DNA of 64,000 nt from Lutimonas zeaxanthinifaciens (GTDB taxonomy: Bacteria > Bacteroidota > Bacteroidia > Flavobacteriales > Flavobacteriaceae): NCBI RefSeq assembly GCF_030503675.1, contig NZ_CP129964.1, positions 682,001 to 746,000 of the forward strand, written 5' to 3'. This document shows positions 24,278-54,841 of the stretch, piece by piece (positions within the stretch are counted from its first letter, which is position 1; each line of letters begins with the position of its first letter). The translations under genes and the position numbers were made by a program. Under the pieces are notes generated by a model that saw only the letters and a program-made list of their open reading frames with translations, was not told the origin of the DNA and searched no databases.

Positions 24278-24313
24278 GTTATACCATTGTTTATCAGTGG
24301 TATAACTTTTTTT
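24278..24313 (+). terminator. Hairpin with U-tract just before the glycogen operon
   Basis: GTTATACCA (24278-24286) pairs perfectly with TGGTATAAC (24298-24306) around an 11-base loop and runs into seven Ts. It looks like an intrinsic terminator for nuo and the small gene behind it. However, it ends only 14 bases before the first glg ATG, so a glg promoter must lie upstream of it. It may therefore act as a leader attenuator. The rest of 24104-24277 is AT-rich, with no clear TAnnTTTG box. Confidence 0.65.
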
Positions 24314-24327
24314 GTCAGTTAATTATT

Positions 24328-25131
24328 ATGGAAATTCTACACGTAAGCGCCGAGTGTTTCCCTGTAGCCAAGGTTGGTGGGTTAGCAGATGTCCTGGTGG
24401 CATTGCCAAAATATCAGAATAAAAATGGTGTTGACTCAAAGGTAATTATGCCATTCTATGACAACGAGTTTAAAGATTCAAATGAGTTCAAATCAATATA
24501 TCAGGCTCATTTAAAACTTGGAAAGCTCCATTATGACTTTGAAATTTTGACTCCATTGAAAGCCCTGGAATTCCCCGTTTTTCTCGTAGACATCCATGGG
24601 TTGTTTGACAGGCCAAAGGTGTATTCTTATGAGGATGATGTGGAACGATTTCTTGCTTTTCAATTGGCCGTTCTGGAATGGTTGTTAAGCCTTAAAAAGA
24701 AACCAGATATCTTACATGCCCATGACCATCAAACCGGTTTTCTGGCTTTTTTAATGTCTCATGGAAAAGCATACAAGACTCTTAAAGAGATTCCAACGGT
24801 TTTCACGATTCACAATGCAAAGTATCAGGGACAGTTTGGTTATGATAAATTGCGGTATTTCCCTGATTTTGATCTGAAGAAAATGGGTATCATTGACTGG
24901 GATGGTTCTATTAATCCTCTGGCTACCGCAATAAAATGTTCATGGAGAGTGACTACCGTTTCCAAAGGATATCTTGAGGAATTAAAGTCAAATGCAAATG
25001 GTCTGGAAAAACTGATAAATGATGAAAGCGAAAAATTTTCCGGAATCCTCAATGGGATCGACACTGAGATTTGGAATCCTGAACTCGATCCTAATCTCGT
25101 GAAAAACTATTCAATAAAAGCGACAAAATAA
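24328..25131 (+). CDS. glgA: Glycogen synthase GT5, N-terminal (acceptor) half only
   Basis: The 267-residue product is the GT5 starch/glycogen synthase catalytic domain. It has KVGGLADV (the ADP-glucose contact KxGGL) near residue 15, HAHDHQTGF and FTIHNAKYQGQF, and ends SGILNGIDTEIWNP then about 20 residues. In full-length GlgA (about 480 residues) this is the N-terminal Rossmann domain, and the linker to the second domain begins exactly where this protein stops. The missing half is encoded 1.2 kb downstream at 26333. The stop overlaps the next ATG in TAATG, which suggests coupling. GT5 N-only proteins are known in Bacteroidota, so a stand-alone role is possible. Confidence 0.88.
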   Translation: MEILHVSAECFPVAKVGGLADVLVALPKYQNKNGVDSKVIMPFYDNEFKDSNEFKSIYQAHLKLGKLHYDFEILTPLKALEFPVFLVDIHGLFDRPKVYSYEDDVERFLAFQLAVLEWLLSLKKKPDILHAHDHQTGFLAFLMSHGKAYKTLKEIPTVFTIHNAKYQGQFGYDKLRYFPDFDLKKMGIIDWDGSINPLATAIKCSWRVTTVSKGYLEELKSNANGLEKLINDESEKFSGILNGIDTEIWNPELDPNLVKNYSIKATK

Positions 25132-26333
25132 TGAAAGCACTTTTTTTTACCAGAGAATTTCCGCCATATGTGTACGGTGGAGCCGGAGTTCATGTTGAAT
25201 ACCTTGCAGGGGAACTTGCAAAACTGATGGAGATGGATGTAAGATGTTTTGGGGATCAGGATGAAAAGGATGGAAATTTATCGGTAAAAGGCTTCCCTTA
25301 CGATAATGTGGTATTTGACGGATCCAATGATAAATTGAAAGCAGTTTTCAAAACCTTGAGTACCTGTATACACATGAATGCAGAAGAAATCGATGCGGAT
25401 GTGGTTCATTGTCATACCTGGTATGCCCAGTTTGCGGGTATTGTGGCCAAGTTGTGTTACGGAATTCCTTTGGTCATAACGACGCATTCACTTGAGCCTT
25501 TGAGGCCTTGGAAAAGAGAACAGCTGGGTAGGGGTTATGACGCCTCTTCATGGGTTGAAAAAACAGCTATTGAAATGGCGGATGCAATTATCGCCGTTTC
25601 TGAGGAAACCAAAGTGGACGTTTTAAAGAATTTTAACGTTGACCCGGATAAGGTAAAGGTAATTTATAACGGAATCAATCTTCAGGAATATGTGGTTACT
25701 GAAACAGATAAAACCTTACTGAAATACGGGGTTGATACGGATAAGCCATTTGTATTGTTCGTGGGCCGAATTACCAGGCAAAAAGGGATCATCCATTTGG
25801 TAAATGCCATTAAATATATCGATCCGAATACTCAGGTGGTATTGTGTGCCGGCGCACCGGATACCCCGGAGATTGCTAAGGAAATGGAAGATAGTGTAAA
25901 CGAGGTGAAGAAAGAAAGAGACAATGTCATTTGGATCGATGTAATGCTTGAAAAAGAAGAGGTAATTGAACTCTATTCACATGCAGATGTGTTTTGCTGC
26001 CCATCGATTTATGAACCATTTGGAATCATAAATATAGAGGCTATGGCTTGTGAAACAGCTGTTGTGGCAAGTGCAGTAGGAGGAATCAAGGAGGTTGTTG
26101 TGGATGGAGAAACCGGTATTCTGGTTCCTTTGGAGCAGCAGGATGTTGCGCCTTTCGAACCTGTAGATCCGGATAAATTTTCAAGGGACATGGCAGAGGG
26201 TGTCAACAAACTGATCAGTGATAGGGAGCTTGCAAGAGATATGGCCCGGAAGGGAAGAAAGAGAGTGGAAGATTATTTTGACTGGATCGCAATCGCTAAA
26301 CAAGTAGAAGGATTGTACAAATCATTATTGTAA
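25131..26333 (+). CDS. glgM: GT4 glycogen synthase / maltose-1-phosphate synthase, GlgM-like
   Basis: This complete 400-residue GT-B enzyme has the N-terminal TREFPPYVYGGAGVH, the linker-following GRITRQKG and the GT4 Ex7E motif in YEPFGIINIEAMACE. It resembles the actinobacterial GlgA/GlgM family, which moves glucose from ADP-glucose onto glucose-1-phosphate (giving maltose-1-phosphate) or onto glucan. glgC, glgE and maltokinase lie in the same operon, which favours the maltose-1-phosphate role, but sequence alone does not decide between them. It is inserted between the two halves of a split GT5 synthase, and both ends overlap their neighbours by one base (TAATG). Confidence 0.85.
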   Translation: MKALFFTREFPPYVYGGAGVHVEYLAGELAKLMEMDVRCFGDQDEKDGNLSVKGFPYDNVVFDGSNDKLKAVFKTLSTCIHMNAEEIDADVVHCHTWYAQFAGIVAKLCYGIPLVITTHSLEPLRPWKREQLGRGYDASSWVEKTAIEMADAIIAVSEETKVDVLKNFNVDPDKVKVIYNGINLQEYVVTETDKTLLKYGVDTDKPFVLFVGRITRQKGIIHLVNAIKYIDPNTQVVLCAGAPDTPEIAKEMEDSVNEVKKERDNVIWIDVMLEKEEVIELYSHADVFCCPSIYEPFGIINIEAMACETAVVASAVGGIKEVVVDGETGILVPLEQQDVAPFEPVDPDKFSRDMAEGVNKLISDRELARDMARKGRKRVEDYFDWIAIAKQVEGLYKSLL

Positions 26334-26986
26334 TGAAGGATAAGCCATCGAGCTCATCGTTTGTTAAAACTGATCTCACATCAGGGAAGCAGAAGAATAA
26401 GATTGACTTATGCAGAAGATTTTCCTTGGACCCTAAAAAACCCTTGTTTTCGTTTATCGGAAGACTGGTCGGGGAAAAGGGGGCCGATTTGCTCCCGGGA
26501 ATTGTTTATAAAGCTTTACTCCGTCAGGAAATAAGCATTTTAATATTAGGTGAGGGAAAAGCAGAAATCACCGCAGAATTAAGTTCATTGAATGTTCATT
26601 TTAAATCAGATTTGGCTTGTATTACAGGATTTGATGAGGTTCTTGCGCATCAAATATATGCAGGGTCAGATTTTCTTCTTATGCCTTCGAGAACAGAACC
26701 CTGTGGTTTGAATCAAATGTACGCGATGAGATACGGTACCATTCCGATTGTAAGAAGAACGGGAGGACTGAATGATACAGTTATGGATATTGGAGACGGG
26801 GGTTTTGGCATTTGTCATGTTCAGGCCTCTGTTAAAGATGTAACGGATTCGATAAACAGAGCAATAGAACTGTTCGGAAAGAAGAAAAAACTGCTTGAAA
26901 TAAGGAAAAAATGTATGCGAATTGATCATTCATGGAATAAATCAGCGCAAGAATATTTAAATTTATACAAATCTTTAACCCATTAA
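26333..26986 (+). CDS. glgA: Glycogen synthase GT5, C-terminal (nucleotide-sugar) half only
   Basis: The 217-residue product is the second Rossmann domain of a GT5 glycogen synthase. SFIGRLVGEKGADLL carries the Arg and Lys that bind the diphosphate. PSRTEPCGLNQMYAMRYG and PIVRRTGGLNDTV complete the donor site, and the C-terminal helix crosses back in full-length enzymes. The first 14 residues (MKDKPSSSSFVKTD) look like new leader sequence. From LTSGKQKNK on, it continues the GlgA linker that the N-half leaves off. Catalytic residues are retained, so assembly with the 24328-25131 product into an active synthase is plausible. Degeneration is not evident. Confidence 0.88.
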   Translation: MKDKPSSSSFVKTDLTSGKQKNKIDLCRRFSLDPKKPLFSFIGRLVGEKGADLLPGIVYKALLRQEISILILGEGKAEITAELSSLNVHFKSDLACITGFDEVLAHQIYAGSDFLLMPSRTEPCGLNQMYAMRYGTIPIVRRTGGLNDTVMDIGDGGFGICHVQASVKDVTDSINRAIELFGKKKKLLEIRKKCMRIDHSWNKSAQEYLNLYKSLTH

Positions 26987-26988
26987 AT

Positions 26989-28254
26989 ATGTTCACTAAA
27001 AAAGTTTTAGGAATTATCCTCGGAGGAGGACAGGGATCTCGACTTTACCCCCTTACAGAAAGTCGTTCTAAACCTGCTGTGCCGATAGCGGGCAAATACA
27101 GATTAGTCGATATTCCAATTTCGAATTGTATCAACTCAGAGATCAAAAGAATGTATGTGTTGACACAATTTAATTCCGCATCCCTTAACAGACATATTAA
27201 GAACACCTATCATTTTAGTTTCTTCAGCCAGGCATTTGTAGATGTTCTTGCAGCTGAACAGACCCCTATGAGCGATACCTGGTTTCAGGGCACGGCTGAT
27301 GCAGTTCGACAAAGCATGCATCATTTCCTAAGGCATGAATTTGAATATGCTTTGATTTTATCAGGAGATCAGTTGTATCAGATGGACTATAACCTGATGG
27401 TCGATCAACACATCAAAAGCAAGGCGAAAATTTCTATTGCTACAATTCCTGTTAATGCGAAAGAAGCTACCTCTTTTGGAATTCTTAAATCTGATGAAAA
27501 GAACAAAATAACCTCGTTCATTGAAAAGCCGGATTCAAGTTTGCTTCCAGACTGGACTTCTGAAGTGAGCGATGACATGAAGGCGGCTGGACGAAATTAT
27601 CTTGCTTCGATGGGGATCTACATATTTAACAGGGATTTGCTGATCGATCTGATGAATAATCCGGATACAAATGATTTTGGAAAGGAAATAATTCCGCAGT
27701 CAATCGATAAGCATAAGGTAGTGAGCTATCAATACGAAGGATATTGGACGGATATAGGAAATATAGATTCATTTTTTGAAGCGAATCTGGGATTGACAGA
27801 TGATATTCCTGCCTTCGATCTTTATGACCGAAACAAACGGATCTATACCAGAGCAAGAATGCTTCCCACTTCAAAAATTTCAGGAACAACCTTGAATAGA
27901 AGCGTCATTGGTGAAGGATGTATTATCCATGCTGCAAAAATAGACAGGTCAGTTATTGGAATCCGTTCGCGAATTGGAAACGAATCTACGGTGATCAATA
28001 CGTATATGATGGGTAATGACTGGTACGAGACCCTTGATGATATCGAAAAGAAAAGAACACAGATACTGATGGGTATTGGTGAGCGATGCTTTATAAAGAA
28101 CGCCATCATTGATAAAAATTGCCGCATTGGAGATGATGTAAGAATTAATGGAGGGCCTCATCAAAAAGACAGAGAAACTGAAACTTACTGTGTTAAGGAT
28201 GGCATTGTTGTTATCAAGAAAGGTGCAGTTATTCCAAAAGGATACGTAATTTAA
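26989..28254 (+). CDS. glgC: Glucose-1-phosphate adenylyltransferase
   Basis: The 421-residue enzyme makes ADP-glucose from ATP and glucose-1-phosphate, the first committed step of bacterial glycogen synthesis. IILGGGQGSRLYPLTESRSK is the nucleotide and activator region, SGDQLYQMDY the metal-binding segment and FIEKP the sugar-phosphate contact. YWTDIGNIDSFFEAN precedes the C-terminal left-handed beta-helix, which is typically involved in allosteric control. Length is normal for bacterial GlgC. It starts two bases after the glgA C-half stop, so it belongs to the same transcript, and it supplies donor for both synthases upstream. Confidence 0.96.
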   Translation: MFTKKVLGIILGGGQGSRLYPLTESRSKPAVPIAGKYRLVDIPISNCINSEIKRMYVLTQFNSASLNRHIKNTYHFSFFSQAFVDVLAAEQTPMSDTWFQGTADAVRQSMHHFLRHEFEYALILSGDQLYQMDYNLMVDQHIKSKAKISIATIPVNAKEATSFGILKSDEKNKITSFIEKPDSSLLPDWTSEVSDDMKAAGRNYLASMGIYIFNRDLLIDLMNNPDTNDFGKEIIPQSIDKHKVVSYQYEGYWTDIGNIDSFFEANLGLTDDIPAFDLYDRNKRIYTRARMLPTSKISGTTLNRSVIGEGCIIHAAKIDRSVIGIRSRIGNESTVINTYMMGNDWYETLDDIEKKRTQILMGIGERCFIKNAIIDKNCRIGDDVRINGGPHQKDRETETYCVKDGIVVIKKGAVIPKGYVI

Positions 28255-28269
28255 CTAACAATTAATAGC

Positions 28270-30207
28270 ATGCAAAAGCAGCAAAGAGTCGTTATTGACC
28301 GTGTTTCTCCACAAATTAACGGCGGAGCTTATTATATTAAAAGAGTAGTGGGCCAACTGGTCCATGTGTCAGCGGACGTACTTGCCGACGGACATGATGT
28401 GTTGGCGGTTTCCATACGATATAAGCATCAAAGTGACAGAAGGTGGAATGAGGTAAGAATGCATCCCGGCCATAATGATGAATGGTATGGTTCCTTCAAA
28501 GTTGAAAAACAAGGAAATTATGCATACAAAATTGAAGGCTGGGTTGATTATGCACTCAATTGGCAACATGGTATCAGCAGAAAGATTCAGGATGGTCAGC
28601 ATGTAAGTTCTGAGTTATCCGAAGGGGTTTTGTATCTCAAACAGGTTATGAAAAAGGCAGATGCTGAAGAAAAAAAGTATTTAAAAGGCCTTATTTCATT
28701 GTTTGGAAACGAAAGTGATTATACAGAAGCAGTTGAGGAATCCGAGTCGAAAAAACTTAAGGAGATTTTTGAAAAGTATCCTGCAAAAATATTGGCAAAT
28801 ACCTCTGAGGAATTGCCTGTTTATGTAGATAGAAAGAAGGCACTTTTTAGTACCTGGTATGAATTCTTTCCAAGATCATCCTCAAAAGAAGAGAACAGGC
28901 ACGGAACCTTTAAGGATTGCATTCCTTTGCTTGGAAGGGTGGCTGAGATGGGTTTTGACACCCTTTATTTTCCACCTATCCATCCTATTGGGGAAGTTAA
29001 CCGTAAGGGTAAAAATAATACAACCAATGCCTTGGAAGGAGATGTTGGATCCTGTTGGGGTATTGGTTCAAAAGAGGGAGGCCATAAGGATATTCACCCA
29101 CAGCTGGGAAGTATCGATGATTTTAAAGAATTAATTAGAGAGGCAAATTCGCTTGGCGTTGAGATTGCAATGGACTATGCCTTGCAGGCTGCCCCGGATC
29201 ATCCATGGGTTAAGGATCATCCTTCATGGTTTAAATGGCGACCCGACGGAACTGTACAATATGCCGAGAATCCTCCAAAAAAGTATCAGGATATCCTGCC
29301 CATATATTTTGAATCAGAAGAATTTAAAGGATTATGGAAGGAATGTCTGGATATCTTATTTTACTGGATAGATTGTGGAATACGAATTTTCAGGGTTGAT
29401 AATCCACATACCAAACCTTTTTATTTTTGGAACTGGATCATCAACGAAGTCAAACAAAAATATCCTGATGTTATCTTTCTTGCTGAAGCATTTACAAGGC
29501 CCAAAATAATGCAGCAACTGGCTAAGCAGGGCTACACTCAGTCTTATACTTATTTTACCTGGCGGGATAATAAGCATGAATTAATCAACTATCTTGAAGA
29601 ATTGACCAAGACGGAGCAAAGGGAATATATGAGGCCGAACTTCTGGCCGAATACCCCGGATATTAATCCTTATCATTTGCAGGGTGCTAATGAGTCCAAG
29701 CACATTCAACGCTATGTTCTGGCAGCAACTTTGAGCTCGAACTTAGGGATTTACGGGCCGATATTTGAGCAAATGATCAGTGCGCCATTATCAGGAAGAG
29801 AGGAATATTTGAACTCTGAGAAATTTCAGATCCAGCATCATGACTGGTCAGTTGAAAACTGGTTGATAAAACTTATTTCAGGGATCAATCAGGCCAGAAA
29901 AGATCATGAGGCCTTGCAGCAAACCAATAATATTAAATTTTGTCATATTGATAATGATCAATTAATAGCCTTTTACAAATGGAATGATGAAAGAACCAGT
30001 GAGGTATTTGTTGTGGTCAGTTTGGATCATCATCACGCCCAGCGAGGAACGGTTCAACTTCCTGTTCAGGACATCGGAATTGGTCATGACCAGGACTTGC
30101 AGATCAGAGATATTGTACCTGATGTAAGCTATACATGGAAAGGAGAATGGAATTTTGTTGAATTACATCCGAATATGCCTTTCCATATTTTTGAAATAAT
30201 TAAATAA
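28270..30207 (+). CDS. glgE: Alpha-1,4-glucan:maltose-1-phosphate maltosyltransferase (GH13_3)
   Basis: The 645-residue GlgE extends alpha-1,4-glucans with maltosyl units from maltose-1-phosphate. An N-terminal beta-sandwich (DUF3416-type, about residues 1-170) is followed by the GH13 barrel with YFPPIHPIGEVNRKGKNN, typical of GlgE. The nucleophile is Asp377 in FRVDNPHTKP and the acid/base is Glu406 in FLAEAFTRP. A C-terminal beta domain completes the usual layout. It is followed two bases later by maltokinase, which makes its substrate from maltose, while GlgC plus GlgM could make it from ADP-glucose. Confidence 0.95.
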   Translation: MQKQQRVVIDRVSPQINGGAYYIKRVVGQLVHVSADVLADGHDVLAVSIRYKHQSDRRWNEVRMHPGHNDEWYGSFKVEKQGNYAYKIEGWVDYALNWQHGISRKIQDGQHVSSELSEGVLYLKQVMKKADAEEKKYLKGLISLFGNESDYTEAVEESESKKLKEIFEKYPAKILANTSEELPVYVDRKKALFSTWYEFFPRSSSKEENRHGTFKDCIPLLGRVAEMGFDTLYFPPIHPIGEVNRKGKNNTTNALEGDVGSCWGIGSKEGGHKDIHPQLGSIDDFKELIREANSLGVEIAMDYALQAAPDHPWVKDHPSWFKWRPDGTVQYAENPPKKYQDILPIYFESEEFKGLWKECLDILFYWIDCGIRIFRVDNPHTKPFYFWNWIINEVKQKYPDVIFLAEAFTRPKIMQQLAKQGYTQSYTYFTWRDNKHELINYLEELTKTEQREYMRPNFWPNTPDINPYHLQGANESKHIQRYVLAATLSSNLGIYGPIFEQMISAPLSGREEYLNSEKFQIQHHDWSVENWLIKLISGINQARKDHEALQQTNNIKFCHIDNDQLIAFYKWNDERTSEVFVVVSLDHHHAQRGTVQLPVQDIGIGHDQDLQIRDIVPDVSYTWKGEWNFVELHPNMPFHIFEIIK

Positions 30208-30209
30208 CC

Positions 30210-31838
30210 ATGGCGGAAAAAGCCTTAAAGAACAAACTTCAGTCAACCTTCGAATTTGAAGGGGTATGGGAAGAACTTTTGGATAATAAAGATTTTATAG
30301 AAATTTTTTTGTCAGAGGTTTTAGAAGACTATATCCTGAAGCAAAGATGGTATGGCGGTAAGTCCAGTAAGCTGAAATATATTGAGCTCAGTGAGTATTT
30401 TAGAATTCAGCAGCACGGGGAGGTTTATTTTGGCTTACTTCTGGAAATCGATTTTGTTGAAGGGTTTTATCATCATTATTTTATTCCTATTGCTTTTGTA
30501 ACAGATGCGAGCTTTGCCAAAAGTGATAGAATACTTCCTATTAAAATTCAAGGGCAACAGGGGTACATTATAGATGCCATTAACCTGGAGGCCTTTAGAA
30601 AACTGGTTTTTGAAAGAATTTTAGGAGCGGTTCCTGTTGACAGAACGAAGGTTCAGTACCATCGCAGTGAATCATTTTGCGATGTGGTGTATGAGTCATC
30701 ACGGTTTATGGGGATGGAACAGAGTAACACATCTATCATATATAATGACAGATTCGTCCTTAAATTCTTTAGACGGATTTTTGCGGATAAGAATCCAGAT
30801 TATGAGATGAGCAGGTTTTTGACCGAGGTCAAGGATTTTAAAAATACCCCTGCCTATAAAGGGAGTTTAAATATTATTGATTCTGATAATGTCAATGTCA
30901 CCATTGCCTTAATGCAGGAGCTTGTGCCAAATAAAGGAGACGCCTGGGACTATATGCTTCATGAATTGCACGAAGTGTTTTTAAATCTTGATGCGAAACA
31001 TATTGATATAAATTCCCTTCAGAGAGTTGGTATGTTTGAAAGGATGAACATTAACCAGGTTAGTCCTGAAATTATAGATTGGATCGGGTTGAACCTTTTT
31101 GTAAAGGTCAGGAAACTTGCAGTCAGGACCGCTGAAATGCATATTGTTTTAGGTTCGGAGTTTGAAGACAATTCCTTCACTCCAAACCATTTTAACGGGG
31201 ATTACGAAGTGTGGTTGAAAAACAGGTTGATCCATCAGTTTCAGAACCGACTCAATACTGTTGAGAATCAGATGCATAAATTAGATGGCATGGCCATGGA
31301 CCTGGCAAAAGAATTTCTTGAAAAAAAGAATGTCATCCGAAAAAAAATTACAAATTTTGACTGGACCAAACTCAAAGGAGAGCGTATCAGGGTACATGGT
31401 GATTATCACCTTGGACAGATTCTGGTCACAGAAGATGATTTTTACATACTCGATTTTGAGGGAGAACCTGAAAGTACCATACGCGACAGAAAAGTAAAGC
31501 AACCTCCTTTGAAGGATGTAGCGGGATTGTTCAGGTCATTCCATTACGCAATTTATGCAAGCCTTTTTAACAATTCCGAGGCCTATAAAAGGCCCCAGGA
31601 AGAACTTTTTGAAGCAGCGGAAATTATATATGCTTATTTGACAAGTGTATTTCTTGAGACCTATGTTGAACAGGTTCAAAATGCCAATTTGAATATAGGT
31701 TATAATCAGGAGCGCATTTTTATATTAAAGTATTGTTTATTGGAAAAAGCTGTTTATGAGATAGGATATGAGCTTAATTCCAGGCCCAGATGGGCACTGA
31801 TTCCATTAAAAGGAATCTCTAATATTATAAATCATTAA
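30210..31838 (+). CDS. mak: Maltokinase
   Basis: The 542-residue maltokinase, which phosphorylates maltose with ATP to maltose-1-phosphate for GlgE, has a eukaryotic-kinase-like fold. An N-terminal cap has KQRWYGGKSSKL, common to Mak/Pep2 proteins. The C-lobe has the catalytic loop HGDYHLGQI (His396, Asp398) and the metal motif DFEGEP (Asp415). In many bacteria this domain is fused to trehalose synthase; here it stands alone, and no treS gene is in the window. It sits between glgE and glgB with two- and four-base gaps, so it is co-transcribed. Confidence 0.9.
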   Translation: MAEKALKNKLQSTFEFEGVWEELLDNKDFIEIFLSEVLEDYILKQRWYGGKSSKLKYIELSEYFRIQQHGEVYFGLLLEIDFVEGFYHHYFIPIAFVTDASFAKSDRILPIKIQGQQGYIIDAINLEAFRKLVFERILGAVPVDRTKVQYHRSESFCDVVYESSRFMGMEQSNTSIIYNDRFVLKFFRRIFADKNPDYEMSRFLTEVKDFKNTPAYKGSLNIIDSDNVNVTIALMQELVPNKGDAWDYMLHELHEVFLNLDAKHIDINSLQRVGMFERMNINQVSPEIIDWIGLNLFVKVRKLAVRTAEMHIVLGSEFEDNSFTPNHFNGDYEVWLKNRLIHQFQNRLNTVENQMHKLDGMAMDLAKEFLEKKNVIRKKITNFDWTKLKGERIRVHGDYHLGQILVTEDDFYILDFEGEPESTIRDRKVKQPPLKDVAGLFRSFHYAIYASLFNNSEAYKRPQEELFEAAEIIYAYLTSVFLETYVEQVQNANLNIGYNQERIFILKYCLLEKAVYEIGYELNSRPRWALIPLKGISNIINH

Positions 31839-31842
31839 TTAC

Positions 31843-33753
31843 ATGGCAGAAGTAATAAATCACAGTCTTTTTACCGAATTTGACATCAATTTATTTAAAT
31901 CCGGCAAGCATTACCGTCTTTATGAAAAATTTGGCTCTCATCCGATCACAGTTGATGGTGTTTCCGGAACTTATTTCTCGGTTTGGGCGCCATCGGCTGA
32001 ATCAGTATCGGTGATCGGAGATTTTAACTTCTGGAACGAAAAGCAGCACAGGCTTAACGTACGATGGGACGGTTCAGGGATCTGGGAAGGATTTATACCG
32101 GATGCAAAAGAAGGAATGCGGTATAAATATAAAATCAAGTCCCATCACAACAATATAGTAACTGAGAAAGCAGATCCTTATGCTTTTTCTTATGAGAAGC
32201 CACCAAATACGGCCTCCATTATTACCAGTATTGATGGATATGAATGGAAGGATAAAGAATGGATGGGTTACAGAAAAGAAAAAAACGGTCTTGATAAACC
32301 TTATGCCGTATATGAAGTTCATTTGGGGTCCTGGATGAGAAACGCTTCTGATAATACTTTTTTTAGCTATGATCAATTAGCGGAAAAGCTGGTCGATTAT
32401 TTAAAGAAAATGAATTTTACCCATGTAGAATTTATGCCGATCATGGAATATCCTTTTGACCCGTCCTGGGGATATCAGCTTATTGGGTATTACGCGCCAA
32501 CCTCAAGATTCGGATCTGCCAAGGATTTTATGAAATTATGTGATCGTTTGCATCAGAATGATATTGGAGTGATACTTGACTGGGTTCCATCTCATTTTCC
32601 TTCAGATGATCATGGACTGGGATTTTTTGACGGAAGTCATTTGTATGAGCACCCGGACCCTAGAAAGGGTTATCACCAGGACTGGAAAAGTTTGATCTTT
32701 AATTACGGCAGAAATGAAGTGAAGTCATTTTTGATCAGTAATGCGTTTTACTGGCTTGATAAATACCATGTTGACGGACTTAGGGTCGATGCGGTTGCAT
32801 CGATGTTGTATCTTGATTATTCTCGTGAAGACGGGGAATGGGAGCCAAATATGTATGGAGGCAGAGAAAATCTCGAAGCGATCGATTTTATCAAAGATTT
32901 TAACAGAGAAGTTTACGCCAATTTTGATGGTATTCAGACCATTGCAGAAGAATCTACAGCCTTTACGGGAGTGACCAATGATGTTGAATTTGGAGGTCTT
33001 GGATTTGGTATGAAATGGATGATGGGATGGATGCATGATACACTTGAGTATTTCGCAAAGGACCCTATTTACAGAAAGCATCATCAAAATGAGATTACCT
33101 TTAGCCTGGCTTATGCTTTTTCTGAAAAGTTCATGCTTCCTTTATCGCATGATGAGGTGGTTTACGGGAAAAATTCACTCTTGGGCAGGATGCCCGGGGA
33201 TGAATGGCAGCGCTTTGCCAATCTCAGACTTCTCTATGCCTATATGTACACCCATCCGGGAACAAAACTGATTTTCCAGGGAGGGGAATTCGGCCAGTCT
33301 GAAGAATGGAACTTCTCTCAAAGCCTGGATTGGCATTTGCTCGAATACAAGCCCCATAAAGGGCTTCAGAGCTTTGTCAGGGATCTCAATTCATTTTACA
33401 AAAATACTCCGGCACTTTATGAAAAGGCCTTCTCTGGAGAAGGATTTGAATGGATCAATTACGGAGATCATGAAAATTCTGTTATATCATATATCAGGAA
33501 GGGACATGACGAACAAAATGACGTTGTAGTAGTTTGCAATTTTACATCTGTGATTCGTAAGAACTATGAAATAGGGCTACCGAGAAAGGGAAAATTAAAA
33601 CAAATTCTCAATAGTGATTATAAGAAATACTTCGGAAGTGGGGTGAGTAACTCCAAAGCCATTGAAATCAAGAAAGTTGAAAGAGACGGCAGGCCTTTTT
33701 CTGCGGCCATAACCTTGCCTCCGCTAAGTTTAGTGGCTTTTGAGATAATATAG
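31843..33753 (+). CDS. glgB: 1,4-alpha-glucan branching enzyme (GH13)
   Basis: The 636-residue GlgB adds alpha-1,6 branches to the glucan. It has an N-terminal CBM48 with YFSVWAPSAESVSVIGDFN, then the barrel motifs EVHLGSW and EFMPIMEYPFDPSWGYQ. The nucleophile Asp316 is in GLRVDAVASML, the acid Glu369 in IAEEST, and LSHDEVVYGKNSL follows. A C-terminal all-beta domain ends the protein. The absence of a longer N1 domain places it among the shorter branching enzymes. It is the last gene of the tightly packed glg run; the GH31 gene follows 161 bases later with its own probable promoter. Confidence 0.96.
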   Translation: MAEVINHSLFTEFDINLFKSGKHYRLYEKFGSHPITVDGVSGTYFSVWAPSAESVSVIGDFNFWNEKQHRLNVRWDGSGIWEGFIPDAKEGMRYKYKIKSHHNNIVTEKADPYAFSYEKPPNTASIITSIDGYEWKDKEWMGYRKEKNGLDKPYAVYEVHLGSWMRNASDNTFFSYDQLAEKLVDYLKKMNFTHVEFMPIMEYPFDPSWGYQLIGYYAPTSRFGSAKDFMKLCDRLHQNDIGVILDWVPSHFPSDDHGLGFFDGSHLYEHPDPRKGYHQDWKSLIFNYGRNEVKSFLISNAFYWLDKYHVDGLRVDAVASMLYLDYSREDGEWEPNMYGGRENLEAIDFIKDFNREVYANFDGIQTIAEESTAFTGVTNDVEFGGLGFGMKWMMGWMHDTLEYFAKDPIYRKHHQNEITFSLAYAFSEKFMLPLSHDEVVYGKNSLLGRMPGDEWQRFANLRLLYAYMYTHPGTKLIFQGGEFGQSEEWNFSQSLDWHLLEYKPHKGLQSFVRDLNSFYKNTPALYEKAFSGEGFEWINYGDHENSVISYIRKGHDEQNDVVVVCNFTSVIRKNYEIGLPRKGKLKQILNSDYKKYFGSGVSNSKAIEIKKVERDGRPFSAAITLPPLSLVAFEII

Positions 33754-33914: not shown

Positions 33915-36320
33915 ATGATTTTAAATACAGAACTGGAACACAAAGGGAATTTGTTCCCTTCAAAAGTAATATCGTACAGAAAAGATGTAGATACTTTTTA
34001 TTTTACCACAGATAATTTTGTGGTATTACAGGTTACCGTGAGACGAGATAGTGTGATCCGTTTCAGATATAGTACAAAGACGATTTTTGACAATGATTTT
34101 TCGTATGCCATAACAAAATATGCAAGCGAGGGTTATAACCATCTTGAGCTGACAGAGGATGAAACGCATTATATTATTACCACCTCAAAATTGATCTGCA
34201 AGATATCAAAGACGGACCTCAGAAAGTCTATTTATGATGCAAAGGATGATAAATTAATATGTGAGGATGAGCTAGGATTTCACTGGGAGGAAAGCTACGA
34301 ATTTGGAGGTGATATTGTAAAGATGTCAAAAGTTTCACAAGACAGTGAAGCCTTTTATGGGTTGGGAGACAAGCCGGTACATATCAATTTAAAGGGAAAG
34401 AGATTCGAGAACTGGGTAACGGATTCATATGCTTACGGAAGAGATACAGACCCAATTTATAAAACGATTCCATTTTACGTTGGGCTTCATCATGAGAAGG
34501 CCTATGGAATATTTTTTGATAACACATTCCGATCTTATTTTGATTTTTGCAGCGAAAGAAGAAATATTACAAGTTTCTGGGCCGAAGGTGGTGAAATGAA
34601 TTACTATTTCATATACGGCCCTGCCATGACCGATGTGGTAGCGTCCTATACGGATCTTACCGGTAAACCTCATGAATTACCCCCTTTATGGGCTTTGGGT
34701 TACCATCAATGCAAATGGAGCTATTATCCTGAATCAAATGTAAGGGCCATAACCAGTAAGTTTCGTGAATTGGAAATTCCTTGCGATGCCATTTACCTTG
34801 ATATTGATTATATGGACGGATTCAGGTGTTTTACCTGGAATAAAGAGCACTTTCCGGACCCAAAGAAAATGGTAAAGGATTTTGAGGAACAAGGGTTTAA
34901 AACCATAGCCATAATAGACCCTGGAATCAAGATCGATATGGAATACTCGGTTTTCCGTGAAGCCCTGGAGAAGGATTATTTTTGTAAAAGGGCAGACGGG
35001 CCATATATGAAAGGGAAAGTATGGCCGGGAGAATGTTTCTTCCCGGATTTTACCGATCCTGAGGTTCGCGACTGGTGGTCAGGACTCTTTAAAGAACTCA
35101 TTGAAGAAATTGGTGTTAAGGGAGTTTGGAATGATATGAATGAACCGGCGGTTATGGATGTTCCCGGTAAAACCTTTCCAAATGACGTAAGGCACAACTA
35201 TGAGGGAAACAGATGCAGTCATAGAAAAGCACATAATATTTATGGTATGCAAATGGCCAGAGCCACATATCAGGGCCTAAAGAAATTTTCATATCCAAAG
35301 CGCCCCTTTGTAATAACCAGGGCTGCATATTCAGGAACCCAGCGTTACACTTCAACCTGGACAGGTGATAATGTAGCTACCTGGGATCATTTGAATATTG
35401 CCAATATACAGGCTCAAAGGCTTAGCATGTCAGGGTTCTCTTTTGTAGGATCTGATATAGGAGGTTTTGCTGAACAACCCAATGGAGAACTTTATGCTAG
35501 ATGGATACAGCTTGGGATGTTTCATCCTTTTTTCAGAACGCATTCGTCAGGAGATCACGGAGATCAGGAACCTTGGGCCTTTGGATCGAACATTACAGAT
35601 ATCGTTCGTAAATTTATTGAAATCAGGTATCAATTGCTTCCTTATTTATACACTGCCTTTTGGAGATATGCTGAAGAAGGTATCCCTATTTTAAAGTCAC
35701 TTGTATTGTTTGATCAGGAAGATCAGCACACACATTACAGAAATGATGAATTTATTTTTGGAGAAAAGATTCTTGCCTGTCCTATTGCGGAACCAAATGC
35801 CAAAGGAAGAAGAATGTTTATTCCTCGTGGAGACTGGTATAATTTCTGGGATAATACAGTGTGGAAAGGCGGTGAAGAAGTTTGGGTGGATGCCGACCTG
35901 GACTCCATGCCTATATTTGTGAAGGCCGGGGCAATCATACCTAAGTATCCTGTTCAGCAATACGTAGGGGAAAAAGAGATCAAAGAACTTGAATTGGATG
36001 TATATTATAAGGAAGGAAAAGAAACTTCACAGGTATATGAAGATGCCCATGATGGTTATGACTATAAAAAAGGCAGGTTTAGCCTGAGAGACTTTAAGTT
36101 GATAGGGAAAAAGAAATCGCTTACGATCCAGCAGTTCAAGGCAGGGAAATATATGACCCCCTATGAAACTTTTAAAATCAATATAAAAGGCCTTCCTTTT
36201 AAAATCACTAAGATTGATATTGACCATGACCTGCTTGATTTGAAGAAAGTTAAGGTCAATGGAGATAATTCCTTTGTTATTGCAAAAGAATTCAACAGGT
36301 TGCATATTACAGGGAAATAG
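33915..36320 (+). CDS. GH31 alpha-glucosidase
   Basis: The 801-residue GH31 enzyme hydrolyses alpha-linked glucose from glucans or maltose. The N-terminal beta-sandwich is followed by the barrel with WALGYHQCKWSYYPE. The nucleophile Asp407 is in WNDMNEP, the acid/base Asp485 in TWTGDN, and FVGSDIGGF and HSSGDHGDQEPW line the active site. No signal peptide is present, so it is probably cytoplasmic and acts on internal glycogen or imported maltodextrin. Its place after the glycogen synthesis genes fits a degradative counterpart. A bidirectional terminator follows. Confidence 0.94.
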   Translation: MILNTELEHKGNLFPSKVISYRKDVDTFYFTTDNFVVLQVTVRRDSVIRFRYSTKTIFDNDFSYAITKYASEGYNHLELTEDETHYIITTSKLICKISKTDLRKSIYDAKDDKLICEDELGFHWEESYEFGGDIVKMSKVSQDSEAFYGLGDKPVHINLKGKRFENWVTDSYAYGRDTDPIYKTIPFYVGLHHEKAYGIFFDNTFRSYFDFCSERRNITSFWAEGGEMNYYFIYGPAMTDVVASYTDLTGKPHELPPLWALGYHQCKWSYYPESNVRAITSKFRELEIPCDAIYLDIDYMDGFRCFTWNKEHFPDPKKMVKDFEEQGFKTIAIIDPGIKIDMEYSVFREALEKDYFCKRADGPYMKGKVWPGECFFPDFTDPEVRDWWSGLFKELIEEIGVKGVWNDMNEPAVMDVPGKTFPNDVRHNYEGNRCSHRKAHNIYGMQMARATYQGLKKFSYPKRPFVITRAAYSGTQRYTSTWTGDNVATWDHLNIANIQAQRLSMSGFSFVGSDIGGFAEQPNGELYARWIQLGMFHPFFRTHSSGDHGDQEPWAFGSNITDIVRKFIEIRYQLLPYLYTAFWRYAEEGIPILKSLVLFDQEDQHTHYRNDEFIFGEKILACPIAEPNAKGRRMFIPRGDWYNFWDNTVWKGGEEVWVDADLDSMPIFVKAGAIIPKYPVQQYVGEKEIKELELDVYYKEGKETSQVYEDAHDGYDYKKGRFSLRDFKLIGKKKSLTIQQFKAGKYMTPYETFKINIKGLPFKITKIDIDHDLLDLKKVKVNGDNSFVIAKEFNRLHITGK

Positions 36321-42883: not shown

Positions 42884-43222
42884 TCAGTTACCGTTCAAAG
42901 CATCTTTCACGGTTGGTTTTACGTCAATAATTGTGTTAAAACCCGATACTGTCAGGATATCTTTTACAATTTCATTTGGGTGACACAGGACCAAAGTACC
43001 TGAATTGGCCATGATTCTTTTAGCTGTAGCCAGAAATACCCTCAGTCCGGCGCTGCTAACATATCTGGTTTGTTCCAGGTCGATCAGCATCTTTTTTGTT
43101 CCCTTATCCAGTAATTCAAGAATTGCATCCTCCGCAACAGGTGAAGTATTGGTATCAAGAGTTCCAATGAAAGCAATAACGGTCTTATCTTGTATTTCTT
43201 TCAATTTGATTTCTAAACTCAT
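42884..43222 (-). CDS. STAS-domain anti-anti-sigma factor
   Basis: This 112-residue SpoIIAA/RsbV-like STAS protein has IAFIGTLDTNTSP, the LIDLEQTRYVSSAGLRVF strand-loop and a typical C-terminal helix. Ser56/Ser57 in SSAG are the expected phosphorylation site. Its ATG overlaps the stop of the 1359-residue sensor gene by four bases, and that protein carries both an RsbW-like kinase and a SpoIIE phosphatase domain. The two therefore probably form a partner-switching pair. The downstream target is unknown, as Bacteroidota lack sigma-B and no cognate sigma gene is adjacent. Confidence 0.9.
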   Translation of the reverse strand: MSLEIKLKEIQDKTVIAFIGTLDTNTSPVAEDAILELLDKGTKKMLIDLEQTRYVSSAGLRVFLATAKRIMANSGTLVLCHPNEIVKDILTVSGFNTIIDVKPTVKDALNGN

Positions 43223-46200
43223 ATTGAATTGGTATTAACATTATACTTGATTAAATTTATGATGTTCTTGTTAGATTGTCTAATGTAATGATATTCATCT
43301 ACAAGATTTTTGACTATATGAACTCCTAAACCTCCAAGATTACGTTCGGAAATGGAAAGTTTAATGTCAGGAGCTTCGTTTCTAAAAGGATTGAACGGAA
43401 TTCCATCATCTTCTATGGTAATGATCAACCGTAAATACTTGAGTTGAAATTTTATATTAATGATATGATCATCGTAGTCGTTATAAGCATAAGAAATAAT
43501 ATTGTTTAATAGCTCATCCAGTACGATATTGAATTTTTGTATCGCTTTAGGAGTGAGATCATTTTGTGAGGCAAAGGCTTCAAAATGTGCTATTACCTTT
43601 GGCATTTCACTAATTTTATTAAAAATTTTGATGGCAGTCTGTTCGCTGGAATCTCTTTCTTTGTCCTGAAGATATTGTATGGCAAGAACGGTTATGTCAT
43701 CGAACTGTTCCGTTCCATCTTCAAAGTGTTTGACGTTTTTTACGATCAGATCGGTAAGACTGCGCGTTGAATCGTACTCACCTGTCTTTATTAATTTGGT
43801 CAATCTGGAAACCCCATAAAACTCTTCATGAATGTTCTGAGCCTCTGAAACACCATCAGTGTAGGCGAGGACCATATCATCTTTTTCGAGATATAATGTA
43901 CTTTCATTATAGGTCATTCCCTCCATGGCACCGATCACAGGTCCATGTAGCTCGTCCAGTATAGTTATATCGCGGTTTTTCCCGATAATATAGGATGGAT
44001 TATGACCCGCATTTGAATAGACGAATTTACCATTATCAGTATTCAAAATGGCTATAAAAACCGTTATGAACATATAAGTATCATTGTCCTTGGCTATTTC
44101 ATTATTAACCTGGGTCAGGATACTGGCGGTAGATCTATCATTGGCAGCGTTTGATTTTAGCAAAGTCTTTGCAACAGCCATTTCCAATGCAGCCGGAACT
44201 CCTTTACCCGAAACATCCCCAACTGCTAAGCAAATATGGTTTTCATCTAAAAAATTAAAATCATAAAAGTCTCCTCCAACTTCTCGAGCAGGAATTAGAT
44301 CTGCATAGATGTCAATTTCCTTTCTATTGGGAAAGGCAGGAAAAGTTAAAGGAAGCATACTCATTTGAATATCTTTTCCAACATTTAATTCACCTTCCAT
44401 CCGTTTATTGGCCTGCATCATTAGGGCTTCATTTTTTTTCCTTTTCGTAATATCCCGAATGATGCCACTGAAATTCATTTGATCAATACCTTCCCACATC
44501 GAAAGTGCAAGAGTTACTGGAAAAATAGTATTATCTTTTTTCTTGCCCTCCATCTCAACGATGTGGCCAATAGCTCTTTTTTCTCCTCCGCTCAATACAC
44601 GTTTCATCCCTTCCTGATGACCCTTATGATACTTTTCGGGTATGATAATCTCCAGATTTTGACCCAAAGCTTCTTCTTCCGTATATCCGAAGATTCTTGT
44701 AGCTGCAGGATTCCATGATTCTATTATTCCGTGCTTGTTGGCAGAGACAATGGCATCAATTGCCGTGGAAGTAATGGAACGAAATCTGTTTTCAGAGGCC
44801 CTGATCTTCTCTTCTGTTTCTTTTCTGTCCGTAATGTCACGGCCAATTCCAATCAGTCCTGCTAACTTGCCATCTTCTGAAAAATAGGGAGTTTTTAAAG
44901 TTTCAACAACGATCCGTTTACCATTGGGTAAAATCGTGACAGACTCGAATAGTTCGGAAGTTCCTTTTTTCAAAACAAAATCATCTGAATTCAAATGTTT
45001 TTCGGCCCGTTCCTTGTCAAGGATATGTAAATCTGTTTTCCCTGCCAGATCGTTTATGTTTAATCCCATATGCTTTTCAAAAGCCAAATTTGCTCCTAAG
45101 TATCGTTTACGGGTGTCTTTATAAAAAATGATGTCAGGTATGGCATTGATCAGGGTTTTTAAAAATGCTTTTTCCTTATTTAATTGTTTGGTTCTCAAAA
45201 TTACCCGATTCTCAAGTTCACCTTTAGCGTTAATTAGTGCCAAATTAGCCTTTTCTCCAAGTTCAAGCGAAAACAGAATGGCAAGTATCGTTAGAATTAT
45301 AACCCCTCCAAAGACCCCAAGTACTGTGAGGCGCATGGTAGTATACGTTGAATTGCCTTCAGTAATATCAATCTCTGAAGCCATACCCATTCTCAAATTT
45401 TTATCCCATAGCCAGGATCCGTAAACCATTACGCCTCGATAATCTCTGTATCCAGTCATGTTAGTACCTGATTTCCCTTTTATGGCATCAGCAGCCATTA
45501 AGGTTAAAGGTTGATCATTTCTTGACACTTTTGGAATAAAGCCTGTTGTCATGTCTCCCCCAGGGTTTCTGATTTCCAATTGCAATATATCACCGTAGTC
45601 ATACGAAATCAATCCTAAATTTCTTAGATCGGTTTTGAACCTGCTCTCAGACAAAAGCCTTCCTTTTTCTCCGAAAACGTAGCATTCACCCGTTCTACCA
45701 ATTCTGGTCAATTGCATCACTTTAGAAAATCCTTTTGATGGATCCAGTCTAATTGCAAGTGCGGCCAGTATTTTCCCCTCTGCATTTTGCACAGGAGATA
45801 CGAAAAATATACTTGCCGGTTTAATTTCTTTTCTGAGGTTTCCATTCAAAAAAACATCAGATTCTATAGGAGGAACAAAAACTGAATTACCCTCGAACAC
45901 CATTTCCAAGAGTTCGGGCCTTTGCTTATAGATTAAATTTTTCAACCCGATATTTTCATCTCTAGATGAAGCAAGATTTACAGCATTCGTATCAATAATA
46001 AAAAATCCAACGCTTTGAAGTTCATCCTGATGCCTTCTATAAAACTCCCTTAGGTTTATGAGTGCTTGTGAGGTAATTAAAGAATCCCTCTCTATGGGTA
46101 TACTCAAAATTTCATTCGCAGATTTCACGAGGATTGGATCTCGGCCAAACTCCTGTACGATTAGTTTGTGATGGTCAATCCAGAGCTTTAATCTTTCATG

Positions 46201-47298
46201 GGTATTTTCAAGTGTCGTTTCAAGGTTTACTTCTAAATCATTAAGAATTTTATTCTTGTTGTGTTCCATGGCCATATAACCGAAAAAGGAGATAACAAGC
46301 AGTATGATCAGGGTTCCGATCATTGTAATAATTCGAAATCTTCTTGAACCTATTTCGAGGACAATCTCTTCCTTGACAACTTTTTTGAAAAAATACTTGA
46401 TCGAATAATGTCCGATTATAAATAAAAGGGCAATAACGGCGATACTTTTAAAAATCAGATATGAAAAGTTAAAAGAATCATCTTCATCCAGGGATTCCGA
46501 TGCAACCCATTTTTCTCGTAAAGTTTTCATTTCATCCTGTGAGATGCTTTCAAGTCCTTTTTGAAGGATGCCGTGCAACACAGGGTTCCTTTTATGAACC
46601 GCTATATATAAAGGGGGAGAGTTCATTTTTTCCAACTGGACATCGGAGGAGATTTTCAGGTTTGGAATATAGTTTTCCTCCAGATAGTAGGAAACCACAC
46701 CGATGCTTTCCACAAACCCATCCAGCTCACCTGTAGAAACTTTGAGAAGGCCGTCTTTAATCGATTTTACCTCAACAGCATTGATCTCGGGATATTTACT
46801 TTCCAACTCAGCCGTGATGGAGAAGCCTTTAATAACCGCAATATTTTTATCCGTAAGATCGTGGATGGAGTTTATCGAATCATTGATGTTTGTGACTAAA
46901 ATGGAGGGTTGAAGATAATAACTTGATGTAAAGGCCATATATTCACTTCGTTCATCATCTTTAAAAACAGCAGGTAAAATCTGAATTTCATCGCGTTTAA
47001 ATAACTCGAGTAATTCATTCCACGTGTAGCCGTTTACAAACTCAATATTCATTCCTGCTTTCTCACTGATCATTGAGATCAGATCGATGGAGTATCCCGA
47101 AGGAAGATCCCCGTCGACAAAATCAAATGGAGGCCAATCCATTTCATTTGCTACATATACAGTGCGATGTTCCTCGATCCAGACGAGTTCTTCATTTGAC
47201 AATTCAAGAGATTTTTCCTGCGCTTTTATATCGTTTACCAATACAATGGTAAAAAGTATTGAAAGGAAATCAATTCTCAATGTTCTGAAAAGTTTCAT
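43219..47298 (-). CDS. Giant sensor: solute-binding, Cache, PAS-PAS, SpoIIE phosphatase, RsbW-like kinase
   Basis: The 1359-residue protein begins with a signal peptide. A periplasmic bacterial extracellular solute-binding domain (about 35-275, MDWPPFDFVDGDLPSGYSID) comes next, then two close membrane helices (about 285-350) and a periplasmic Cache-like domain (about 350-640). A further membrane helix, two PAS domains (about 705-830, 835-955) and a short coiled coil follow. The PP2C/SpoIIE phosphatase (from about 980) has GGDFYDF, GDVSGKG, TDGVSEA and FDDITV acids intact. The C-terminal HATPase (about 1215-1355) has ELLNNIISYAYND and IEDDGIPFNPF. It overlaps the STAS gene in ATGA and follows a porin gene by 30 bases. 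The ligand is unknown. Confidence 0.9.
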   Translation of the reverse strand: MKLFRTLRIDFLSILFTIVLVNDIKAQEKSLELSNEELVWIEEHRTVYVANEMDWPPFDFVDGDLPSGYSIDLISMISEKAGMNIEFVNGYTWNELLELFKRDEIQILPAVFKDDERSEYMAFTSSYYLQPSILVTNINDSINSIHDLTDKNIAVIKGFSITAELESKYPEINAVEVKSIKDGLLKVSTGELDGFVESIGVVSYYLEENYIPNLKISSDVQLEKMNSPPLYIAVHKRNPVLHGILQKGLESISQDEMKTLREKWVASESLDEDDSFNFSYLIFKSIAVIALLFIIGHYSIKYFFKKVVKEEIVLEIGSRRFRIITMIGTLIILLVISFFGYMAMEHNKNKILNDLEVNLETTLENTHERLKLWIDHHKLIVQEFGRDPILVKSANEILSIPIERDSLITSQALINLREFYRRHQDELQSVGFFIIDTNAVNLASSRDENIGLKNLIYKQRPELLEMVFEGNSVFVPPIESDVFLNGNLRKEIKPASIFFVSPVQNAEGKILAALAIRLDPSKGFSKVMQLTRIGRTGECYVFGEKGRLLSESRFKTDLRNLGLISYDYGDILQLEIRNPGGDMTTGFIPKVSRNDQPLTLMAADAIKGKSGTNMTGYRDYRGVMVYGSWLWDKNLRMGMASEIDITEGNSTYTTMRLTVLGVFGGVIILTILAILFSLELGEKANLALINAKGELENRVILRTKQLNKEKAFLKTLINAIPDIIFYKDTRKRYLGANLAFEKHMGLNINDLAGKTDLHILDKERAEKHLNSDDFVLKKGTSELFESVTILPNGKRIVVETLKTPYFSEDGKLAGLIGIGRDITDRKETEEKIRASENRFRSITSTAIDAIVSANKHGIIESWNPAATRIFGYTEEEALGQNLEIIIPEKYHKGHQEGMKRVLSGGEKRAIGHIVEMEGKKKDNTIFPVTLALSMWEGIDQMNFSGIIRDITKRKKNEALMMQANKRMEGELNVGKDIQMSMLPLTFPAFPNRKEIDIYADLIPAREVGGDFYDFNFLDENHICLAVGDVSGKGVPAALEMAVAKTLLKSNAANDRSTASILTQVNNEIAKDNDTYMFITVFIAILNTDNGKFVYSNAGHNPSYIIGKNRDITILDELHGPVIGAMEGMTYNESTLYLEKDDMVLAYTDGVSEAQNIHEEFYGVSRLTKLIKTGEYDSTRSLTDLIVKNVKHFEDGTEQFDDITVLAIQYLQDKERDSSEQTAIKIFNKISEMPKVIAHFEAFASQNDLTPKAIQKFNIVLDELLNNIISYAYNDYDDHIINIKFQLKYLRLIITIEDDGIPFNPFRNEAPDIKLSISERNLGGLGVHIVKNLVDEYHYIRQSNKNIINLIKYNVNTNSI

Positions 47299-54820: not shown

Positions 54821-54841
54821 ACTGAACCTAAAAGAAAATTA

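Follow-up and report, generated by a model that had tools for sequence, protein, structure and literature searches.

A GT5 glycogen synthase gene divided at its interdomain linker by a complete glgM gene: a candidate two-chain enzyme in Lutimonas

The closest described systems are the GT5 glycogen synthase GlgA (TIGR02095; structures 2qzs and 1rzu), GlgM acting with GlgE (TIGR02149; structure 6tvp) and the Alg13/Alg14 transferase. GlgM is presented as the GT4 enzyme supplying GlgE in the available portions of PMC4981310 and PMC11046441, and as mostly actinobacterial in that of PMC11046441. According to the same portions of both papers, GlgE of Gram-positive bacteria coexists with the GT4 enzyme and never with GT5 GlgA, and other combinations occur. 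The available text of PMC11046441 also records a GT5 fragment that is retained in Bacteroidetes, and that of PMC8993221 describes Alg13/Alg14 as a two-chain GT-B GlcNAc transferase whose heterodimer is proven. No precedent for a split GlgA or a split GT5 enzyme was found in the open-access literature searched.

We analyzed a window of 64,000 nucleotides (the whole stretch of DNA under study) from the complete, 3.53-Mb genome of Lutimonas zeaxanthinifaciens. Here, the nuo genes are followed, from 5′ to 3′, by a 108-aa gene, the N half of a GT5 synthase, a GlgM-type GT4 gene, the C half, glgC, glgE, a maltokinase-like gene (mak), glgB, and an 801-aa gene that we take to be GH31-like (Table 1). 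The three open reading frames that a sequence-only reading of this DNA had pointed out lie exactly where it placed them, and the motifs it quoted are present in the GT5 halves. Against the glgA model TIGR02095, the N half matched positions 1-270 (231.4 bits) and the C half positions 267-477 (214.0 bits), and the two together tile positions 1-477 with a 4-position overlap; a full-length match in one protein was not obtained, each half scoring below the curated cut-off of 328.45. Thus, the break falls at a domain boundary, as had been claimed, and its site is the variable interdomain linker: the N chain extends little beyond the NYS motif, and the C chain, after a short species-variable N terminus, picks up at the SGK motif of intact enzymes. 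The middle gene covered positions 1-390 of 391 of TIGR02149 with 542.1 bits (cut-off, 302.4), matched the solved M. smegmatis GlgM structure 6tvp at E=6e-109, and is linked to glgC and glgE in the window (26989-30207).

Table 1. Features of the glycogen locus, in window coordinates
Feature	Position	Strand	Evidence or remark
12-pair hairpin followed by a T run	24278..24313	+	about 15 bases 5′ of the N-half start codon
GT5 glycogen synthase N half, acceptor-side Rossmann domain, 267 aa	24328..25131	+	TIGR02095 1-270; PF08323 214 bits; AlphaFold2 model
Joint 1, TAATG stop-start overlap	25129..25133	+	read in DNA, compared across relatives
glgM-type GT4, complete, 400 aa	25131..26333	+	TIGR02149 542 bits; 6tvp E=6e-109
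Joint 2, TAATG stop-start overlap	26331..26335	+	read in DNA, compared across relatives
GT5 glycogen synthase C half, ADP-glucose domain and C-terminal helix, 217 aa	26333..26986	+	TIGR02095 267-477; AlphaFold2 model
glgC, glucose-1-phosphate adenylyltransferase	26989..28254	+	NF002772 630.6 bits, TIGR02091 445.6, both above cut-off
glgE, maltose-1-phosphate maltosyltransferase	28270..30207	+	PF11896 176.5 bits, PF21702 81 bits, both above cut-off
Maltokinase-like gene (mak)	30210..31838	+	TIGR02457 353.4 bits, slightly below cut-off 375.05
glgB, branching enzyme	31843..33753	+	NF003811 957.9 bits, above cut-off
801-aa gene	33915..36320	+	neighbor 3′ of glgB kept in both locus types

Like GlgA, the GT5 pair comprises both domains, has the main catalytic residues and lies 5′ of glgC; unlike GlgA, it consists of two chains with another gene between them, neither of which reaches the family cut-off. 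The middle gene resembles the described GlgM in being a complete gene of this type in an operon with glgC and glgE, and differs in being nested inside glgA. GT-B N and C domains reside on separate chains here as in Alg13/Alg14, a eukaryotic, membrane-bound enzyme of another GT family; pairing is proven there, in the available part of that source, whereas here it is proposed.

The one-base TAATG overlaps reported for the two joints are present at both of them in the window genome and in its two closest relatives (G013 and G017) but are not general, since G004, G009, and G012 differ at one or both: at joint 1, the stop abuts the start in G004 and the overlap is four bases in G009, and a short gap precedes the C half in G012 and G009. 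Thus, the conserved feature across relatives is close spacing and not the overlap itself. With the TAATG joints not conserved, we can only infer that the N chain, the C chain, and GlgM are made in fixed ratio. All six full split loci have the same gene order with very close spacing, which would also suit a single three-chain complex, in which the N chain, the C chain, and GlgM apportion ADP-glucose to glucan elongation and to the making of maltose 1-phosphate for GlgE. This assembly appears distinctly improbable, as exact overlaps are not conserved, close spacing is common in such operons, and GlgM of the split loci, which has no added domain, resembles GlgM of the GlgM-only loci, the latter being 79-84 percent identical to that of the window.

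Among 22 Lutimonas genomes, the split arrangement was found in 7, with all three genes in 6 (G000, the window genome, G004, G009, G012, G013, and G017) and cut by a contig end in G015, which starts within glgM. An intact glgA was present in 6/22 (G006, G008, G010, G011, G019, and G005, the last as two contig-end pieces), glgM without GlgA in 5/22 (G002, G003, G016, G020, and G021), and neither gene in 4/22, all of them incomplete (G001, G007, G014, and G018). G006 is a metagenome-assembled genome (MAG), 67% complete, that carries a glgM-type contig besides its intact glgA and may be a mixture of genomes. A search of relatives for the order GT5-N/GT4/GT5-C therefore returned it whole in 6 of the 22 genus genomes. 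Retention of one half only, which the sequence-only reading had named as counting against itself, was not seen: both halves occur in all six complete stretches (G015, cut by its contig, is uninformative on this point). Three simpler accounts were rejected. Presence in seven genomes rules out an assembly error, and seven genomes with open frames together with purifying selection (see below) rule out a frameshift or pseudogene, in line with the earlier statement that this is not a frameshift. The third, another glycogen synthase in the genome, found neither an intact GT5 nor a GT3 enzyme: no intact GlgA, and hence no separate intact glgA, was present among the GT5 matches of the complete window genome, and no GT3 synthase was found in the 22 genus genomes.

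We also scanned 397 Flavobacteriaceae genomes, 3 of them Lutimonas, for GT5. Three GT5 matches at 1e-20 were listed in 7/397, namely, the 3 Lutimonas genomes and G072, G178, G339, and G373; among the matches listed, none of the latter four is split, and G339 is seemingly cut by contig ends. Eleven odd cases checked from 395 genomes of the phylum likewise contained no second such split among the matches listed, being intact genes, intact genes plus a fragment, one-frame pieces, contig pieces, N-only proteins, or parts of very long frames. When the C half was used as the query, 4 of the best 80 of 533 named loci were split, all matching Lutimonas genomes, and in the other 76 a single frame contained both the N and the C part, a contig end cutting one of these loci. 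Separately, a GT5 C-part match (positions 227-474) was noted in a 262-aa open frame (G792:C166:37645-38394); an intact GlgA is present in that genome as well.

Selection on the halves was evaluated as codon-model omega, with one ratio per set. The N half gave 0.044 in the six split genomes versus 0.056 for the same half of five intact Lutimonas genes, and the C half gave 0.063 (0.053 without its new N terminus) versus 0.043. In the split genomes, the corresponding values were 0.014 for GlgM, 0.011 for GlgC, 0.037 for GlgE, 0.016 for Mak, and 0.029 for NuoN. Silent sites in these wider sets are near saturation, and the closest trio, as the safer guide, yielded 0.040 for the N half, 0.088 for the C half (0.068 without the new N terminus), and 0.013 for GlgM. 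Constraint on the halves is close to that on the intact enzyme, slightly weaker for the C half, and both halves evolve more freely than GlgM and GlgC. Relaxed selection, another observation that would have spoken against the original proposal, was thus absent, omega being about as low as for intact GlgA. Between close relatives, dS of the C half was 0.40-0.56, below the 0.77-1.21 of the N half and the 0.99-1.66 of GlgM in these genomes. We give almost no credence to the halves being decaying remnants of a broken glgA. Genome G020, with no GT5 between or around its glgM, would suit decay; an omega of 0.04-0.06 speaks strongly against it, and the frames have stayed open in all split genomes although amino-acid identity to the window is as low as 72 percent for the N half and 69 percent for the C half.

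Active-site residues were compared using the numbering of Escherichia coli GlgA. K15, G17, G18, D21, D137, H161, N162, and Y165 are kept in 6/6 N halves, and R300, K305, E377, P378, C379, G380, and D403 in 7/7 C halves. K15, D21, D137, H161, R300, K305, and C379 are presumably GlgA active-site residues, and the title of structure 3cop names a mutant of E377; by these eight residues, the pair belongs with GlgA. The claim that catalytic residues remain in both halves is therefore upheld for the main ones. Two other positions have changed: H139 is replaced by Q in 5/6 split N halves and Y355 by F in 5/7 split C halves, both being invariant across an alignment of 22 intact sequences, among them that of E. 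coli. Of 140 positions that at least 98% of the 75 intact relatives used for comparison share, 9, 8, 9, 5, 7, and 5 are changed in the six full split pairs, 5, 5, 7, 2, and 3 in five intact Lutimonas sequences, and 7 in the outside genome G023; E. coli GlgA differs at 47/138.

These substitutions in derived split genomes (H139Q and Y355F), together with the slightly freer C half, are what would be expected if the halves had separate, non-synthase roles, e.g., the C half binding ADP-glucose in partnership with GlgC or GlgM and the N half binding glucan. Stand-alone GT5 N domains do exist in Bacteroidota, as the available text of PMC11046441 reports, and the sequence-only reading had taken such proteins as its main alternative. 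One is encoded in this genome too: a second GT5 N-domain protein of 269 aa (L002:1489-2298) adjoins a panC-like gene, and same-size matches to it occur in most genus genomes. It shares with the N half the possession of a GT5 N domain alone. Unlike the split pair, however, it lies at a different locus, has no C half, and has lost catalytic residues, differing at K15, D21, D137, and H161; it is thus a different gene, and this form of the alternative was not borne out. Separate roles would not require donor- and acceptor-side catalytic residues to be kept on separate chains, the known N-only protein did lose them, and the two halves occur together in 6/6 genomes with the whole stretch. We consider separate roles rather unlikely.

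Each half is predicted to fold as a GlgA domain. Modeled alone with AlphaFold2, the N half reached a mean pLDDT of 84.6 and a pTM of 0.86, and its best Foldseek matches were the N domains of 6gne, 1rzu, and 2qzs. The C half gave a mean pLDDT of 75.9 and a pTM of 0.77, with low confidence in loop 142-161 and the last helix, the one that in GT-B enzymes packs against the other domain. Its Foldseek matches were 4hln, 2qzs, 1rzu, and 2bfw; the last, to which it has TM scores of 0.71 and 0.78, is the separately solved C domain of Pyrococcus GlgA, indicating that a GlgA C domain can fold by itself.

Taken together, a natural two-chain GT5 glycogen synthase working beside the GlgM-GlgE route is, in our judgment, a reasonably probable reading of these sequences. 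It draws on the tiling of the GlgA model by the halves, their conservation across the clade, their low omega and kept residues, the lack of another GT5 or GT3 synthase, the domain-like predicted folds, the solved 2bfw domain, and the Alg13/Alg14 precedent; and the maintenance of both halves by selection suggests that the two chains still work together. Weighing against it are H139Q, Y355F, the freer C half, the 5-9 of 140 conserved positions that are broken (2-7 in intact Lutimonas sequences), genome G020 with its glgM and no GT5, and the low-confidence loop and last helix of the C-half model. The N and C chains would most likely join without a covalent linker and form an ordinary GT-B cleft, and the joined chains would elongate glucan from ADP-glucose, while GlgM would draw on the same ADP-glucose to form maltose 1-phosphate for GlgE. 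Both the binding and the joint activity of the two chains are what we infer from their sequences.

The slot behind nuoN and the 108-aa gene holds an intact glgA in G005, G010, and G011, glgM in G002, G003, G016, G021, and the second G006 contig, and the split locus in G000, G009, G012, G013, and, with one extra gene on the 5′ side, G004; G008 and G019 have an intact glgA with other upstream neighbors, and the upstream side is off-contig or masked in G006 (first contig), G015, G017, and G020. Sister species thus carry either an intact glgA or glgM in the slot upstream of glgC. Intact Lutimonas loci read glgA-glgC-glgB, with no glgE or mak seen, and glgM-only and split loci have glgE after glgC wherever the contig extends that far (in G003 and G021, no mak separates glgE from glgB, and glgE is truncated in G017). 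Among 18 fetched loci with glgC from other genera, 8 were glgA-glgC-glgB and 10 were glgM-glgC with glgE nearby, glgM being linked to glgC and glgE in all 10, one with intervening genes. Flanking genes were homologous in 5/6 same-genus pairs of differing locus type, which indicates that the locus contents were exchanged in place. The glycogen locus of Flavobacteriaceae has two exchangeable forms, glgA-glgC-glgB and glgM-glgC-glgE-mak-glgB, swapped in place within genera.

Across the 397 family genomes, canonical intact GlgA scored above the cut-off in 74 and GlgM in 61, the latter in contrast to its description as mostly actinobacterial in the available part of PMC11046441. Both occurred together in 0 genomes versus 11.4 expected (Fisher p 1e-6, relatedness ignored). 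G072, a GlgM genome in 320 contigs, encodes a distant GT5 of the long type, at 34% identity, on a different contig. MAG G006 aside, the split Lutimonas genomes are the only ones seen with both canonical-type GlgA and GlgM. Given the alternative contents of the slot and this lack of co-occurrence, the split locus is a hybrid of the family's two alternative glycogen loci.

In phylogenetic trees, the split GT5 sequences formed one clade (support 100/99) inside the Lutimonas GT5 clade (100/99), and this nesting indicates that the halves descend from the resident glgA. In the GlgC tree, glgA-type and glgM-type loci were intermixed (e.g., G082 with G303 at 100/100), which fits an exchange of glgA and glgM-glgE around a resident glgC-glgB. 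The rpoB tree was weak at depth and did not recover the split genomes as one clade, and AU tests of one entry into Lutimonas or more gave p values of 0.056 for GlgE and 0.25 for GlgM. In the simplest history, the ancestor of a single Lutimonas lineage would have received glgM in the interdomain linker of its resident glgA, and glgE and mak would have come to lie between glgC and glgB; how and in which direction the insertion took place is a reconstruction.

G020 has glgM directly 5′ of glgC and no GT5, and by GlgC it is sister to the split genomes (97/95). Either both halves were lost from it or its lineage diverged before the insertion occurred, and the GT5 pair would accordingly be dispensable there or was never present. 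The 52-nt spacer 5′ of its glgC matched the tails of the split genomes better than 300/300 shuffles. As a control, 5 of 11 other glgM-type spacers reached a p of at most 0.04, and 3 of these scored higher (34 versus 31); peculiar to G020 and the split genomes are only the shared last spacer bases and the glgC start. The trace may be a weak sign that both halves were lost.

The hairpin upstream of the N half (Table 1) recurs in 5/6 split genomes (not in G009), and in G004 and G012 both stem sides are changed with pairing preserved. No similar hairpin with a T run was seen in 4 intact and 6 glgM-type upstream stretches. It is a possible terminator or attenuator of the operon; the terminator count of the scan was not above chance (2 versus 3.0), and the promoter scan gave no signal (17 promoter-like sites versus 12.6 expected). 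Elsewhere in the window (43219-47298 and 49028-58537) lie genes for very large sensor proteins, i.e., a solute-binding/PAS/SpoIIE protein (1359 aa), a histidine kinase bearing a SnoaL-like domain at its N terminus (1930 aa), and a propeller-type histidine kinase (1231 aa).

If the chains cooperate, nature would here have split a GT-B enzyme known from textbooks as a single chain, and the sister species with intact or GlgM-only loci are ready-made controls. This makes it testable whether a GT-B enzyme stays functional when its domains are uncoupled and why the two routes exclude each other. A three-chain assembly, if true, would reconcile pathways that are otherwise mutually exclusive in Flavobacteriaceae. 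The locus catches a switch between two glycogen pathways, both of which Lutimonas retains, one nested inside the other.
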